This document shows positions 20,517 to 33,184 of a stretch of DNA of 64,000 nucleotides, piece after piece. How positions within the stretch are numbered: the stretch's first letter is position 1; each line of letters opens with the position of its first letter. This DNA comes from an uncultured Alphaproteobacteria bacterium (GTDB lineage: Bacteria > Pseudomonadota > Alphaproteobacteria > Rhizobiales > Ancalomicrobiaceae): positions 1 to 64,000 of the forward strand of contig CALMFH010000064.1 of assembly GCA_937864925.1 (NCBI GenBank), given 5' to 3'. The translations under genes were made by a program, and so were the position numbers. The notes beneath the pieces are model-generated. The model searched no databases. It had not been told where the DNA came from and worked only from the letters and a program-made list of their open reading frames with translations.

Positions 20517-21386
20517 TCAGGCGCGTTGCAGGCGCCGGCACACTTCGTCGAGCTGCTCCAACGAGCGATAACGCACCCGGACCTCACCGGAACCGTCCGC
20601 CTTGTGATCGATGACCACGGCCAAGCCGAGCGCGTCGGAAAGTGCCTTTTCGAGCGCCGCCGTATCGGCGTCCTTGTCCTTCTTCGGCCGACCGGGCTTC
20701 GGCACATCCGCCGGTCGCGGCGTCTGGGCGAGCGCTTCGGCCTGGCGCACCGACAGGCCTTCGTCGACGATCCTGGTCGCCAACGCCTCCGGATTCGCCG
20801 CCGCGAGCACCGCACGGGCGTGGCCGGCGGTGATCCGGCCGGAGCGCAGATGCGCCTTGACCGGCTCCGACACCTTGAGTAGGCGCAGGGTGTTGGCGAC
20901 GTGGCTGCGGCTCTTGCCGATGATCTCGCCGAGATCCTGCTGGGTGTAACCGAATTCCGCGATCAGCTGTTCGTAACCGAAGGCCTCTTCCAGTGGGTTG
21001 AGATCGGTGCGCTGGACGTTCTCGATGATCGCCAGCTCCAGCGCCTCCTTGTCGGAGACGTCCTGCACGATCACCGGGATCTCGTGCTGACCGGCGCGCT
21101 GCGACGCCCGCCACCGCCGCTCACCGGCGATGATCTCGTAGTGGTTGGCCAGGCCCTTCGCCGGCCGTACCAGGATCGGCTGGACCACGCCCTTCTCGCG
21201 GATCGACTTCGCCAACTCGCCGAGATCGGCATCGTCGAAGGCGCGCCGTGGATTGCGCGGATTGGGGTGGATCATCTCGATCGGCACCCGCTTCGATCCC
21301 GAGCGCTCCGCCGCCGCGATCTCCGGCTCGGCCATGTCGCCGAGCAGCGCCGCCAATCCGCGTCCGAGCCGTCTGCGTTCTTCCAC
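20517..21386 (-). CDS. parB: Chromosome partitioning protein ParB
   Basis: CTP-dependent clamp that loads at parS and spreads along the origin region. The 289 residues begin with a GTG codon. The CTP-binding patch GERRWRASQRAG (about 100-111), the HTH that reads parS (YTQQDLGEIIGKSRSHVANTL, part shown) and a C-terminal dimerisation tail (EVRVRYRSLEQLDEVCRRLQ) follow in order. The parB gene lies 98 bp after parA. Five parS-like sites lie 1-12 kb away. Confidence 0.97.
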   Translation of the reverse strand: MEERRRLGRGLAALLGDMAEPEIAAAERSGSKRVPIEMIHPNPRNPRRAFDDADLGELAKSIREKGVVQPILVRPAKGLANHYEIIAGERRWRASQRAGQHEIPVIVQDVSDKEALELAIIENVQRTDLNPLEEAFGYEQLIAEFGYTQQDLGEIIGKSRSHVANTLRLLKVSEPVKAHLRSGRITAGHARAVLAAANPEALATRIVDEGLSVRQAEALAQTPRPADVPKPGRPKKDKDADTAALEKALSDALGLAVVIDHKADGSGEVRVRYRSLEQLDEVCRRLQRA

Positions 21387-21484: not shown

Positions 21485-22312
21485 TCACGCTGCCACTTCG
21501 GCTCGGATCCGCCGCTCGCGCTGGATGATCTCCGAAGCGAGGCGGAGATAGGCCTGGCTGCCGGCCGACTTCAGGTCGTAGAGCAGCGCCGGCTTGCCGT
21601 GCGACGGCGCTTCCGAGATGCGGACATTGCGCGGAATGATCGTGTCGTAGACCGCCGCGCCCATGTGCTGGCGCACGTCCGCCACCACCTGACCGGAGAG
21701 GTTGTTGCGCGCGTCGTACATGGTCAGCACGATGCCGTGGATGGTCAGCTCCGGATTGAGCGCCCCCTTGACCTGCTCGACCGTCGAAAGCAGCTGCGAC
21801 AGGCCCTCCAGCGCGAAGAATTCGCACTGCAACGGCACCAACACCGAATGCGAGGCGGTCATCGCGTTGATGGTCAGGAGATTCAGCGACGGCGGGCAAT
21901 CGACCAGGACATAGGTGAACCGCGGCCCGTCGTCCTGCGCCGTCTCGATGTAGTCGGCGATCGCCTTGCGCAGCCGGTAGGCGCGATCGGCGGTCGATGC
22001 GATCTCCAGCTCGACCCCGAGCAGGTCGAGGGTCGACGGCGCCACCCACAGCCGCGGTACCGCCGTCTCGATCAACACCTCTTCGAGCGTGTTGTCGCCG
22101 ACCAGAACATCGTAGGTCGAGCGCTTGCGCGACCGCCGATCGATGCCGAGGCCGGTCGAGGCGTTGCCCTGCGGGTCGAGATCGACGATCAGCACCTCCT
22201 CGCCGATCGCGGCGAGCGCCGTACCGAGGTTGATCGCGGTCGTGGTCTTGCCGACGCCACCCTTCTGGTTGGCGAGGGCGAGAACGCGGGGCGACTTGGA
22301 GAGCTTGGCCAT
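21485..22312 (-). CDS. parA: Chromosome partitioning ATPase ParA
   Basis: Deviant-Walker ATPase that moves ParB-parS complexes over the nucleoid. The 275 residues carry KGGVGKTTTAINLG (about 17-30), VDLDPQGNASTGLG and VLVDCPPSLNLLT. The ATG at 22312 is chosen because GGAG lies 8 bases upstream; an in-frame ATG at 22339 would overlap the rsmG stop by 14 bp. parA follows rsmG directly, the classic origin-side order. Confidence 0.97.
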   Translation of the reverse strand: MAKLSKSPRVLALANQKGGVGKTTTAINLGTALAAIGEEVLIVDLDPQGNASTGLGIDRRSRKRSTYDVLVGDNTLEEVLIETAVPRLWVAPSTLDLLGVELEIASTADRAYRLRKAIADYIETAQDDGPRFTYVLVDCPPSLNLLTINAMTASHSVLVPLQCEFFALEGLSQLLSTVEQVKGALNPELTIHGIVLTMYDARNNLSGQVVADVRQHMGAAVYDTIIPRNVRISEAPSHGKPALLYDLKSAGSQAYLRLASEIIQRERRIRAEVAA

Positions 22313-22325
22313 GAACGGCGCTCCA

Positions 22326-22988
22326 TCAGGGCTTTTCACGTGAAACGATCTTGCGGATCTCGACCAACCGGCCCGTCGGATCCGTCTTGCTCTGATGTTC
22401 TATCAGATCCAGAGCCCAAGATAGAGTAGCTTCCTTCAGTTCAGCCCCAAAATCTTGTCCTTTGTGGAAAACTGCGACCGCCCCGCGAGCCACCAACGGG
22501 GCCGCCCAGGCGCACAGTCGATCGAGGCCGGCAAGGGCTCGCGCCGACACCGCATCGACCGGTTCGATGAAGCCACCGACGAAATCCTCGATCCGCCGAT
22601 CGTGCACGATCGCCGGCGCGCCGGTCTCCCGCGCCACCGTCCGCAGGAACGCCGCCTTCCCTTTGTTGCTCTCGACCAGATGAACCGCTGCCCCCGGCGT
22701 CTCGGCGAGAAGAATCGCCGTCACCAACCCGGGAAAACCGGCGCCGGACCCGAGATCGACCCATCGCCGAGCCTGCGGCAGCAGGGCCCGTGCCTGCGCC
22801 GAATCGGCGACATGCCGACTCCAGATCCGCGAGAGGGTGGTGGGCGCCACCAGATTTTGGCTCTTCTGCCATTTCGCCACCAGAGCGACATGGATCTCGA
22901 GCCGCTCCCGCGTTTCACGTGAAACCGCGACGATGCCGTCGAGCGCCTCCGGCCCGTCGTCGATGGTCGGCACACTCGTTCTTCTCAT
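22326..22988 (-). CDS. rsmG: 16S rRNA (guanine-N7) methyltransferase RsmG
   Basis: Methylates G527 of 16S rRNA using SAM; formerly gidB. The 220 residues show the SAM site WVDLGSGAGFPGLVTAI (about 90-106), HLVESNKGKAAFLRTV and AVSARALAGLDRLC. Two parS-like sites lie inside the coding sequence and are translated as VSRETRE (near residue 22-28) and VSREKP at the very C-terminus. It ends 13 bp before the parA start. Confidence 0.96.
   Translation of the reverse strand: MRRTSVPTIDDGPEALDGIVAVSRETRERLEIHVALVAKWQKSQNLVAPTTLSRIWSRHVADSAQARALLPQARRWVDLGSGAGFPGLVTAILLAETPGAAVHLVESNKGKAAFLRTVARETGAPAIVHDRRIEDFVGGFIEPVDAVSARALAGLDRLCAWAAPLVARGAVAVFHKGQDFGAELKEATLSWALDLIEHQSKTDPTGRLVEIRKIVSREKP
22332..22347. 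promoter_or_regulatory. parS-like ParB site 1
   Basis: CTTTTCACGTGAAACG, 13 of 16 bases matching TGTTTCACGTGAAACA with the core TTTCACGTGAAA intact. Lies in the last codons of rsmG, 20 bp from the parA start. Confidence 0.75.
22911..22926. promoter_or_regulatory. parS-like ParB site 2
   Basis: CGTTTCACGTGAAACC, 14 of 16 matching; only the end bases differ. Inside the rsmG 5' coding region. Confidence 0.85.
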
Positions 22989-25097: not shown

Positions 25098-25113
25098 TGT
25101 TTCACGTGAAACA
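25098..25113. promoter_or_regulatory. parS site 3 (perfect)
   Basis: TGTTTCACGTGAAACA, a perfect 16-bp match to the consensus. It lies in the 172-bp mnmG-mnmE gap; its right half is also part of the hairpin that follows mnmE. Confidence 0.95.
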
Positions 25114-26552: not shown

Positions 26553-28571
26553 GTGCCCCTACCCGCCGCCAATCTTCTCTCCGGCTCGTCGAGCCCCTAT
26601 CTGCTGCAGCACGCCGCGAACCCGGTGCACTGGCGCCCCTGGGGACCCGAAGCTCTCGCCGAAGCCGCCGCGACCGGCAAGCCGATCCTGCTCTCGGTCG
26701 GTTATGCCGCTTGCCACTGGTGCCACGTCATGGCCCACGAGTCCTTCGAGGACCCCGAAGCCGCCGAGGTGATGAACCGGTTGTTCGTGAACATCAAGGT
26801 CGATCGCGAAGAACGACCCGACATCGACCAGATCTACATGGCCGCCCTCCATGGCCTCGGCGAACCCGGCGGCTGGCCGCTCACCATGTTCCTCGACCCG
26901 GCCGGTCGGCCGTTCTGGGGCGGCACCTATTTCCCCCGCCGCGCCCGCTGGGGCAAGCCGGGCTTCGTCGATCTCATTCGCGAGATCGCCCGAATCCACG
27001 CCGAAGAGCCCGACAAGGTCGCCCACAACGCCGCCGCGCTGCGCGATCACCTCGCGGATCGGATACCGACCACTCCCCGCGATCTCGGGACGGCATTCCT
27101 CGATGCCGCCGCCGATCGTCTCCTCGGCCTCTTCGATTCCATCGAGGGCGGCACCCGGGGCGCCCCGAAATTCCCGCAGACCCAACTCCTCGAAGCCTGG
27201 TGGCGCGCCGGGCACCGCCGCGCCGGCGCCCCCGCCTTCCATGCCGTGCTGCACACCCTCGAACGCATGAGCCTCGGCGGCATCTGGGACCACCTCGGCG
27301 GCGGTTACGCCCGCTATTCGGTCGATGACCGCTGGCTCGTCCCCCACTTCGAGAAGATGCTCTACGACAACGCCCAGCTCCTCGACCTGCTCGGTCGCGC
27401 CTGGACGATGACCGGGAAACGATTGTTCCGCGACCGAATCGAGGAAACGGTCGGCTGGCTCTCCCGCGAGATGCGCCGACCGGAGGGTGGTTTCGCCTCC
27501 GCGATCGATGCTGACAGCGAGCACGAGGAAGGGAAGTTCTACGTCTGGAGCGCCGCCGAAATCCACGAGGTCCTCGGCTCCGCCGCGGCCGAATTCGCCG
27601 CCGCCTACGATGTCCACCCCGGTGGCAATTGGGAAGGTAAGACCATCCTCACCCGCTCCCTCACTCCCGACCACGGCGATCCCGAGCGCGAAACCCGCCT
27701 CGCCGAAGGCCGCCGACGGCTCTTCGCTCGGCGCGCCGCACGTGTGCGGCCGATGACCGACGACAAGGTTCTCGCCGACTGGAACGGTGGCGCCATCACC
27801 GGGCTCACGCTCGTTGCCCGCCGTCTCGATCGCCCCGACTGGCTCGACCTCGCCCGCGATGCCTATCGCTTCGTTTCCGAATCGATGGGCCGCGGCGATC
27901 GCCTCGCCCATTCCTGGCGCGACGGCGCCATGGTCTTTCCCGGCCTGTCGAGCGACCTGGCTCAGATGGCCCGCGCCGCACTCACCCTGCACGAGACCAC
28001 CCGCGACCCCGGTTACCTCGCCGATGCCGAACGCTGGCTCGCCGCCCTCGACCGCCACCACGCGGATCCCGCCGGCGGCTGGTTCCTCACCGCGGACGAC
28101 GCCGAAGCGTTGATCGTACGCCCGGCTTCGTCGAAGGACGACGCCACCCCCAACCCGAATGCCGTGGCGATCGACGCCCTCCTGCGCCTCGCCGTCCTGA
28201 GCGGCGACGAGAACCACCGCTCACGCGCCGAGGTCGAACTTCGTGCCTTCGCCGAGGTGATGACCGAGGATCTGTTCGCGACCGCCTCGCTCGCTTCCGC
28301 CCTGGACCTCGCCCTCGGTCTCGTCGAGGTCGTACTGGTCGCCCCTTCGGGGACCGACCCCGTTCCGCTCCGCCGCGTCGTCTTCGAAGCGACCGATCCG
28401 CGGATCGTCCTGTTCGAAACCGAATCGACCGGAACGCTTCCCGCGACCCATCCTGCCCACGGTAAGATCGCCATCGACGGCCGGCCGACCGTCTGGATCT
28501 GCCGCCGGGGTGCCTGCGGTCTGCCGATCGGCGACCCCGCGACGTTGCACCGTCTGCTCGAACCGGCCTAG
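26553..28571 (+). CDS. DUF255 thioredoxin-domain protein (YyaL/SPATA20 family)
   Basis: A 672-residue cytoplasmic protein with an N-terminal thioredoxin-like domain, [18 protein letters not shown] and [20 protein letters not shown] (CxxC), [13 protein letters not shown], joined to a C-terminal six-hairpin, glycosidase-like barrel ([35 protein letters not shown]). The family is widespread from bacteria to mammals and its reaction is not settled. GTG start with GGAG 8 bases upstream. It stands alone on the plus strand between minus-strand mnmE and rho. Confidence 0.93.
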
Positions 28572-28697: not shown

Positions 28698-28713
28698 TGA
28701 TTCACGTGAAACA
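28698..28713. promoter_or_regulatory. parS-like ParB site 4
   Basis: TGATTCACGTGAAACA, 15 of 16 matching. It abuts the hairpin that follows rho, with no base between, and overlaps a GANTC site at 28699. Confidence 0.9.
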
Positions 28714-30899: not shown

Positions 30900-31958
30900 T
30901 CAGCGCTTCGCCGCCCGCACCCGCTCGACCAACCGCGCCACGTTGGCGGGATCCGCATCCGGGGTGATGCCGTGACCGAGATTGAAGATCAACCGCCCGC
31001 TGCCGAGCCCCTCCAGCACCCGGTCGACCCCCTCGTCGAGCGCCCGCCCGCCGATCACCACCCGCATCGGATCGAGATTGCCCTGCACCGCTGCGATCGG
31101 TTGGATCCGCTCACGCACGAAACCCGCCGGCATCGTCCAGTCGACCCCGACCGCATCGACCCCGGTCTCCCGAATGTAGCGCTCCAGCGACGCCTGCGCC
31201 CCCTTCGGAAAACCGATGATCCGTGCACCCGAGTGGATCGCCCGCACCCCTTCGACGATTCGCTTCGTCGGCCGGATCACCCAACGTTCGAACTCGGCCT
31301 CGTCGAGCACCCCGGCCCAGGTATCGAAGATCTGCACCGCATCGGCACCACGCCGGATCTGTTCCGCGAGATAGCGGATCGAGGCGTCGACGAGCACGTC
31401 GATCAGTTGCGCGAAGCCTTTCGGATCGGTCAACGCCGCCCGCCGCGCCGGCGCCTGGTCCGGCGTGCCGCGACCGGCGATCATGTAGGTCGCGACCGTC
31501 CACGGTGCCCCGCAGAAGCCGAGAAAGGTGGTCTCGGACGGAAGTGTCGACCGGATCCGTTCGACCGCCTCGTAGACCGGCGCCAGCCGCCCGTCGATCG
31601 CCTGCGGATCGAGATCGCCGACCCGTGCCAGATCGAGCGGTTCGAGCACCGGCCCTTCACCTTCCTGGAACGCCACCTTGCGACCCAGCGCATCGGGGAT
31701 CACCAGAATGTCGGAGAACAGGATCGCCGCGTCGAAGCCGTAGCGCCGGATGGGCTGCAAGGTCACTTCGGTCGCCAGTTTCGGCGTGTAACAGAGATCG
31801 AGGAAGCCACCGGCCTCGGCTCGGGTCGCTCGATACTCCGGCAGATAGCGTCCGGCTTGTCGCATCACCCAGATCGGTGGCGGAAAGAGGGTCTCGCCCG
31901 CCAGCACCCGGAGCACCTTCCGCTCCGTCGCGGATCCTTCGGTCGCCGGCGTCGTCAC
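30900..31958 (-). CDS. hemE: Uroporphyrinogen decarboxylase
   Basis: Converts uroporphyrinogen III to coproporphyrinogen III. 352 residues, full length. Signatures [17 protein letters not shown], the catalytic-Asp region [26 protein letters not shown] and [16 protein letters not shown] are present. A GTG start at 31958 is chosen because AAGAGGGG lies 5-6 bases upstream. hemE followed by hemJ forms an operon that points away from the candidate origin. Confidence 0.97.
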
Positions 31959-32046
31959 GCACACCCCCCTCTTAAAACCATTCTTCGAATGAAGATCTGT
32001 TGAGACTCTTGGACCGTGGATTACCGGGATCCGCGACGAACCACAA

Positions 32047-32062
32047 TGACTCACGTGAAACA
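32047..32062. promoter_or_regulatory. parS-like ParB site 5, inside candidate oriC
   Basis: TGACTCACGTGAAACA, 14 of 16 matching. A GANTC site (32048-32052) overlaps its left half. Confidence 0.8.
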
Positions 32063-32116
32063 CACCTCCACGGGCAGCCTGTGGACGACCGACATCCGCC
32101 TCGTTCCGGTCCACCG

Positions 32117-32156
32117 CGTCAACCTTTCGTCAACCTTCGTTACCAAAGGGTTGACG
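32117..32156. repeat. Helically phased GTCAACC repeats in candidate oriC
   Basis: CGTCAACCTT occurs at 32117 and again at 32128, an 11-bp step; a weaker half (TTACC) follows at 32141, and an inverted copy, AAGGGTTGACG, ends at 32156. Read as TCAA-N7-TCAA this resembles a CtrA site with one base changed in each half. Confidence 0.75.
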
Positions 32157-32362
32157 CCGATCGCGACAGTACCGCCGCTGTGGATCGTCGGTCGATCGCC
32201 GACCCCGGGTCGTACGTTCGTTCACGCCCTCGGAAAAACGCTCTTCGTCGAACTTCGTCCTTCGGCCCTGTTGATCGTTTTGCACGAAGGGGAGAGAGTT
32301 GCCGGGCCGAAGCCGATCGACGCGGTTCGTCCACCGCGCGCCCTCGGCCTGGGGACAGACCT

Positions 32363-33184
32363 GTGACCACACAGTCCAACTTCTTCCATCTCCATCTGAT
32401 TTCCGATTCGACCGGCGAAACGCTGACCACCGTGGCGCGTGCCGCCGCGGCCCAGTACGAGGCGATCGAGCCGATCGAACACGTCCACCCGCTGGTTCGC
32501 ACCGATCGCCATCTCGACCGTGCCCTGGTCGAGATCGAACAGTTTCCCGGCATCGTCCTCTATACGGTGGTCAACCGCGATCTCGCCGATCGGCTCGAAC
32601 GGTTCTGCCGTGATCAGGGTCTGCCCTGCGTCTCGGTGCTGGCGCCGGTGCTCGACATCTTCCGCTCGTTCCTCAACGTCGCCCAGACACACCGCGCCGG
32701 TGCCCAGCACACCCTCGATGCCGACTACTTCAAGCGCATCGATGCGATGAACTTCACCCTCGCCCATGACGACGGCCAGCTGCCACACGATCTCGACGAC
32801 GCCGACGTCGTCGTCCTCGGCGTGTCGCGCACTTCCAAGACCCCGACCTCGATCTATCTCGCCGGACGCGGCATCAAGGTCGCCAACATCCCGATCGTCC
32901 CGGGCATCGACCCGCCACCGGCGCTCAAGACCGTGTCGAAGCCGCTGGTCGTCGGGCTCATCGCCAGCCCCGATCGTATCGCCCAGATCCGCGAGAACCG
33001 CGTCATCGCCATGGGCTCGAAGAGCTTCGACACCACCTATGTCGATCGCCCGTCGATCGCCATCGAACTGACCGTGATGCGCCGACTCTGTGCCGACCAC
33101 GACTGGCCGGTGATCGACGTCACCCGCCGGTCGATCGAAGAAACCGCCGCCGCGATCATCGCCCTGCTGCGCGCCCGTCGCTGA
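32363..33184 (+). CDS. ppsR: Pyruvate,phosphate dikinase / PEP synthase regulatory protein (DUF299)
   Basis: Bifunctional ADP-dependent kinase and Pi-dependent phosphorylase that switches PPDK or PEP synthase off and on. The 273 residues start FFHLHLISDSTGET and carry the P-loop VLGVSRTSKTPTSIYLA (about 152) plus the C-terminal block VIDVTRRSIEETAA. GTG start at 32363. First gene of a plus-strand run with maf, aroE and coaE. Which dikinase it controls cannot be told from the window. Confidence 0.94.
   Translation: MTTQSNFFHLHLISDSTGETLTTVARAAAAQYEAIEPIEHVHPLVRTDRHLDRALVEIEQFPGIVLYTVVNRDLADRLERFCRDQGLPCVSVLAPVLDIFRSFLNVAQTHRAGAQHTLDADYFKRIDAMNFTLAHDDGQLPHDLDDADVVVLGVSRTSKTPTSIYLAGRGIKVANIPIVPGIDPPPALKTVSKPLVVGLIASPDRIAQIRENRVIAMGSKSFDTTYVDRPSIAIELTVMRRLCADHDWPVIDVTRRSIEETAAAIIALLRARR

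Follow-up and report, generated by a model that had tools for sequence, protein, structure and literature searches.

The DNA analyzed here, referred to as the window, is a stretch of 64,000 nt from one contig of a draft genome of 4.15 Mb in 290 contigs. Within it, an intergenic gap of 404 bp lies exactly between the starts of hemE and ppsR. The original prediction placed these two genes beside the gap and had them point outward, and both parts were borne out: Pfam matches make the identities of the encoded proteins firm as sequence assignments, and the two genes diverge from the gap on opposite strands. To the left, Pfam matches also identified rho, parA, and parB. On the same side are genes we take to be mnmE, mnmG, and rsmG, and to the right genes we take to be maf, aroE, coaE, and dnaQ, all named from their translations together with the usual gene order of the family. 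A 672-aa gene on the plus strand (26553-28571) stands between mnmE and rho, opposite in direction to its neighbors, and judged from its sequence looks like a thioredoxin-domain protein; the rest of the origin-proximal cluster around it is standard. The closest relatives of PpsR came from an alphaproteobacterial MAG (96%), a Siculibacillus MAG (94%), Pinisolibacter aquiterrae (86%), and Siculibacillus lacustris (82%), and the host is therefore a Hyphomicrobiales bacterium.

Any 7-of-9 match (2 mismatches) to TTATCCACA was scored as a DnaA-like box. The three boxes predicted for the gap were all recovered, each on the minus strand (32015-32023, 32080-32088, and 32179-32187), and none of them was a perfect DnaA box. 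The window as a whole held an ordinary number of such boxes, 41 vs 34 expected. Within the window, the gap was the only 404-bp stretch with three. Under a Markov model of the gap, 0.45 boxes would be expected, and the probability of at least three is 0.01. The gap is also richer in AT than its surroundings (60.4% GC vs 69.3% GC for the window), and its 42-mer at 31969-32010, which is 64% AT, falls in the top 0.01% of all 42-mers of the window. The motif GATCTGTT, which had been assigned to an AT-richer patch, does lie in this segment.

Conservation was judged from an alignment of 14 family gaps, and motifs were counted over 15 family gaps. The alignment revealed sharp conserved blocks amid drifting sequence, including GTGGATTACCGGGATC (a DnaA box on the minus strand), CCACAATGACTCACGTGAAAC, CTGTGGA, CTGTTGATCG, TTCGTCCACCG, and CTGGGGACA (Table 1). 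The boxes at 32015 and 32179 are kept through the family, and the box at 32080 is genus-specific. The block CTGTTGATCG is among the best conserved in the gap and matches no DnaA, CtrA, or IHF consensus that we tried. The CtrA site TTAA-N7-TTAA was not found in the gap, even with the loose TTWW form, and strict sites were present in 7 of the 15 family gaps; the IHF site WATCAN5WTR was likewise not found in the gap and occurred once in the family. A hairpin at 32116-32157 was discarded as hardly stabler than shuffles (z -1.3).

Table 1. Features in and around the hemE-ppsR gap (window coordinates)
Feature	Coordinates	Strand	Basis or remark
parB	20517..21386	-	chromosomal type; nearest relative of solved structure is Caulobacter ParB 6t1f
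parA	21485..22339	-	Pfam match
parS-like site CGTTTCACGTGAAACC	22911..22926	+	motif scan
perfect palindromic parS TGTTTCACGTGAAACA	25098..25113	+	motif scan
second composite site TGATTCACGTGAAACA	28698..28713	+	past 3' end of rho; carries GANTC
hemE (uroporphyrinogen decarboxylase), left flank	30900..31958	-	GTG start at 31958; URO-D PF01208, E 1e-110
intergenic gap, predicted chromosomal origin (oriC)	31959..32362	.	flanks, DnaA-like boxes, AT patch, family conservation
AT-rich patch, candidate DNA-unwinding element	31968..32010	.	contains GATCTGTT 31994-32001 and GANTC 32004-32008
conserved DnaA-box block	32015..32031	-	TAATCCACG on minus, GTGGATTACCGGGATC on plus; GTGGATTA in 13/14 aligned family gaps
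degenerate DnaA box CGAACCACA	32037..32045	+	CGATCCACA in several relatives; two bases ahead of the composite site's GANTC
composite site TGACTCACGTGAAACA	32047..32062	+	2 mismatches to parS; ParB half-site CACGTGAAAC plus GANTC 32048-32052
DnaA-like box TCGTCCACA	32080..32088	-	common only to genus
degenerate CtrA-type site TCAA-N7-TCAA	32119..32133	+	aligned place of TTAA-N7-TTAA in relatives
DnaA-like box CGATCCACA	32179..32187	-	most of the family has a CTGTGGA core; TGTG in 14/14 aligned
conserved block CTGTTGATCG	32268..32277	+	CTGTTGA in 14/14 aligned family gaps
conserved TTCGTCCACCG, DnaA-box-like	32326..32336	+	family alignment
conserved CTGGGGACA	32349..32357	+	DnaA-box-like TGTCCCCAG on minus, or ppsR leader
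ppsR (COG1806, DUF299; Kinase-PPPase), right flank	32363..33184	+	GTG start at 32363; PF03618, E 2e-89

The whole draft genome contained four parS-like sites with up to 2 mismatches, and all of them lay within 9.2 kb near the gap; with up to 3 mismatches allowed, the window held five such sites vs 0.05 expected. The element inside the gap fits, with 2 mismatches, the near-palindrome TGTTTCACGTGAAACA of chromosomal parS close to the origin and parAB. About 7 kb to the hemE side of the gap, a canonical site is found in genome G000 and a GATTC form in G004 and G010. Among chromosomal ParB proteins the encoded one is unremarkable, and it shares its recognition helix, GKSRSHVANT, with Caulobacter ParB; at the equivalent of Caulobacter A184 it has Lys, and the members read have Lys or Arg. 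A parS inside the gap as a general alphaproteobacterial feature was ruled out, such a site being absent from most other gaps examined.

Origins of the hemE-COG1806 type are recognized by a divergent intergenic location, a DnaA-box cluster, raised AT content, and a skew minimum (PMC1914354). The description of hemE and ppsR as the classical alphaproteobacterial origin flank agrees with that published criterion, and, in a comparison confined to the window, the box cluster exceeds other intergenic regions, as the criterion demands. The gene dnaA is on a different contig. We then turned to relatives for the skew. In G007, a genome of the same family (5.00 Mb), the sampled cumulative skew minimum fell at ~4.15 Mb, ~20 kb from the gap (4.172 Mb), whereas dnaA (3.629 Mb) lies 0.54 Mb away. 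In G120, from another family (3.42 Mb), the skew flips exactly at the gap, which lies at 336 kb with the minimum at 335 kb; dnaA, at 696 kb, is 0.36 Mb distant. A skew minimum next to dnaA, named with the original prediction as the result that would speak against it, was found in neither of these genomes, whose minima lay at or near the orthologous gap. Two further genomes were set aside as clean tests, their skew being weak or scrambled: G009, with an estimated minimum at 4.67 Mb and the gap at 3.11 Mb (1.6 Mb apart), and G078, with a broad minimum.

No local flip of skew was found at the gap in the window itself, where it is negative on both sides, as it is in G010 and G012. Plus-strand genes near the gap strongly favor C in the third codon position, a bias that accounts in part for this negative skew. 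From 32363 to 64000 most plus-strand genes have this bias (GC3 skew to -0.5), masking replication skew, and the window's skew was consequently ruled out as a clean test of the origin. Skew is therefore supportive in G007 and G120, and the genome under study itself gives no clear call. It is very unlikely that the gap is a mere divergent promoter for hemE and ppsR and the origin lies elsewhere, either some tens of kilobases off in the direction of ppsR or close to dnaA: the skew of the window's contig stays negative until ~48 kb and turns only there, and a local sign change lies ~50 kb to the ppsR side in G007, yet local skew is biased by the third-position C-richness of plus-strand genes, the window has no other cluster of DnaA boxes, parS sites are concentrated around the gap, and the flip in G120 and the global minimum in G007 lie at or within ~20 kb of the gap with dnaA distant in both.

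Gene order, the conserved boxes, the AT patch, the confinement of parS, parAB ~10 kb off, and the skew of relatives together support the reading of the gap as oriC, and it is very probably the predicted DnaA-dependent replication origin of this Hyphomicrobiales chromosome. DnaA would bind the conserved boxes and then melt the AT-rich patch, from which replication would proceed bidirectionally. An oriC at this place is ordinary and expected for an alphaproteobacterium. The gap resembles Cori of Caulobacter crescentus in its flanking genes, DnaA-type boxes, AT-rich patch, and GANTC sites (PMC1914354, PMC3973325). It differs from Cori in having neither a strict CtrA site nor an IHF consensus and in having a parS-like site inside; with the strict CtrA and IHF sites missing, we did not file it as a CtrA/IHF-regulated Cori.

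The unexpected part of the locus, as read from its sequence, is what appears to be a centromere-like site fused with a cell-cycle methylation site, recurring across one order. The original prediction listed a parS-like site and two GANTC sites in the gap. All are present (GANTC at 32004 and 32048), but they are not all separate features: the second GANTC (GACTC, 32048-32052) lies inside the parS-like site, and the two therefore form one element. This in-gap composite, GACTCACGTGAAACA, has one canonical ParB half-site, and its partner half, GACTCAC, has been turned into a GANTC. The window holds 124 GANTC sites vs 411 expected from dinucleotide shuffles, a deficit of more than 3-fold of the kind typically seen when a genome with CcrM avoids the motif, and a CcrM homologue, a methyltransferase-like ORF with the diagnostic RAMA domain, is encoded on contig C217. 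The GANTC of the composite, in a genome with a CcrM homologue, is thus a predicted CcrM target.

Within the family, GANTC together with CACGTGAAAC was present in 12 of the 15 gaps; two family members, G007 and G005, lack the in-gap composite, and G004 has lost the ParB half. A second composite is situated 3.3 kb from the in-gap one, among the clustered parS sites. Family half-sites near the origin that deviate at core positions 2-3 are nearly all GATTC or GACTC, with a few GTCTC, and among those listed none had C or G at core position 2.

We then compared the composite pattern GA(C/T)TCACGTGAAAC with the control pattern G(C/G)(C/T)TCACGTGAAAC, for which chance gives a ratio of 1 to 2, in a phylum sample of 299 genomes (38 Hyphomicrobiales and 261 others). 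The Hyphomicrobiales genomes contained 55 composites vs 5 controls. The remaining genomes contained 8 vs 17, the ratio expected by chance. The p-value for the enrichment, 4e-21, takes no account of kinship and should not be read literally; neither sites nor genomes are independent. In a second Hyphomicrobiales family, GATTC sites were several-fold commoner than canonical ones. Across the loci examined, T2>A was the most frequent half-site substitution (37 cases). No doubly converted site was found in those loci, vs ~5 expected if the halves change independently. These counts establish, as a pattern of sequence, a one-sided fusion of GANTC with parS and its enrichment in Hyphomicrobiales.

The composite also occurs within the gap of Chelatococcus (L076, gap position 429) and Pseudochelatococcus (L044, gap position 413), reversed and at another position, and there it is probably an independent gain. 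In other Hyphomicrobiales families, composites come in pairs or triplets ~35-38 bp apart (L219:6816 and 6854; G601:C3:17815-17897), a spacing that suggests arrays.

For a one-sided, order-specific change that creates GANTC in a genome otherwise avoiding it, the simplest functional account is selection for a methylation site touching ParB. On this account CcrM, by methylating the GANTC half, would tune the loading of ParB, and the segregation machinery would read the full or hemi-methylated state of the just-replicated origin. We put forward this effect of methylation on ParB tentatively. Hyphomicrobiales may, with the same reserve, possess a class of methylation-controlled centromere at which ParB would load differently on hemi-methylated sister origins than on fully methylated ones. 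This would tie segregation to the CcrM cycle and, via the oriC copy beside a DnaA-box-like sequence, initiation as well. Most other alphaproteobacterial orders have CcrM (PMC3973325, PMC11514494); since these orders show no excess of composites, CcrM is not sufficient for their appearance.

The main rival, to which we give not quite an even chance, also takes the gap as oriC and holds that the ParB of this order tolerates A at core position 2, GANTC being a by-product. Such tolerance also predicts that the N of GANTC would nearly always be T or C, as it is, and the GTCTC half-sites indicate that position 3 is a pyrimidine irrespective of GANTC. The Lys at the A184 equivalent fits as well, since in Noc a Lys at that place contacts the backbone at base 2 (PMC7383237). 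Against this, any residue at 184 retained parS binding in a random selection, and ~28% of ParB proteins have Lys or Arg there (PMC7383237). C or G at position 2 is almost never seen near the origin, though GC-rich genomes favor them, and both the lack of doubly converted sites in the loci examined and the avoidance of GANTC elsewhere in the window weigh on the same side. That Lys184 by itself brought about the composite is a weak explanation: G078, which has this residue, carries three perfect parS and only one composite nearby. It is improbable that the gap element is instead the site of another regulator needing GANTC beside CACGTG; its asymmetry, its retention in most family gaps, and its abutting a DnaA-box-like sequence would suit such a regulator, but composites alternate with perfect parS at about equal distance in sister genomes and cluster around parAB.

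Returning to the proposed methylation-sensitive ParB site, the element shares with chromosomal parS of ParABS systems the CACGTG core, one canonical half, and clustering by the origin and parAB; it differs in that one half, and never both in the loci examined, is GANTC. Joint occurrence of parS and GANTC has likewise been noted on repABC replicons of Alphaproteobacteria, where GANTC clusters of a megaplasmid lie ~500 bp from parS (PMC9040568), whereas here GANTC is inside a chromosomal parS. The proposal has in common with Dam/SeqA of E. coli and V. cholerae (PMC2865523) the notion that a protein binding a replicated origin is controlled by how that origin is methylated. In those systems GATC and SeqA act on initiation; the counterparts here are GANTC, CcrM, and, by proposal, ParB. 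GANTC methylation at the Caulobacter parS locus has served as an assay control (PMC5172544). In the open-licence literature we found neither the composite string in print nor a description of GANTC inside parS, nor a sequence-level link between CcrM and ParABS, and a prior description is possible.

If functional, the composite would be a direct sequence-level link from the CcrM methylation clock to ParABS segregation in Hyphomicrobiales, an order that includes the rhizobia and agrobacteria, and it makes testable in common laboratory strains whether a centromere reads the methylation state of its DNA.
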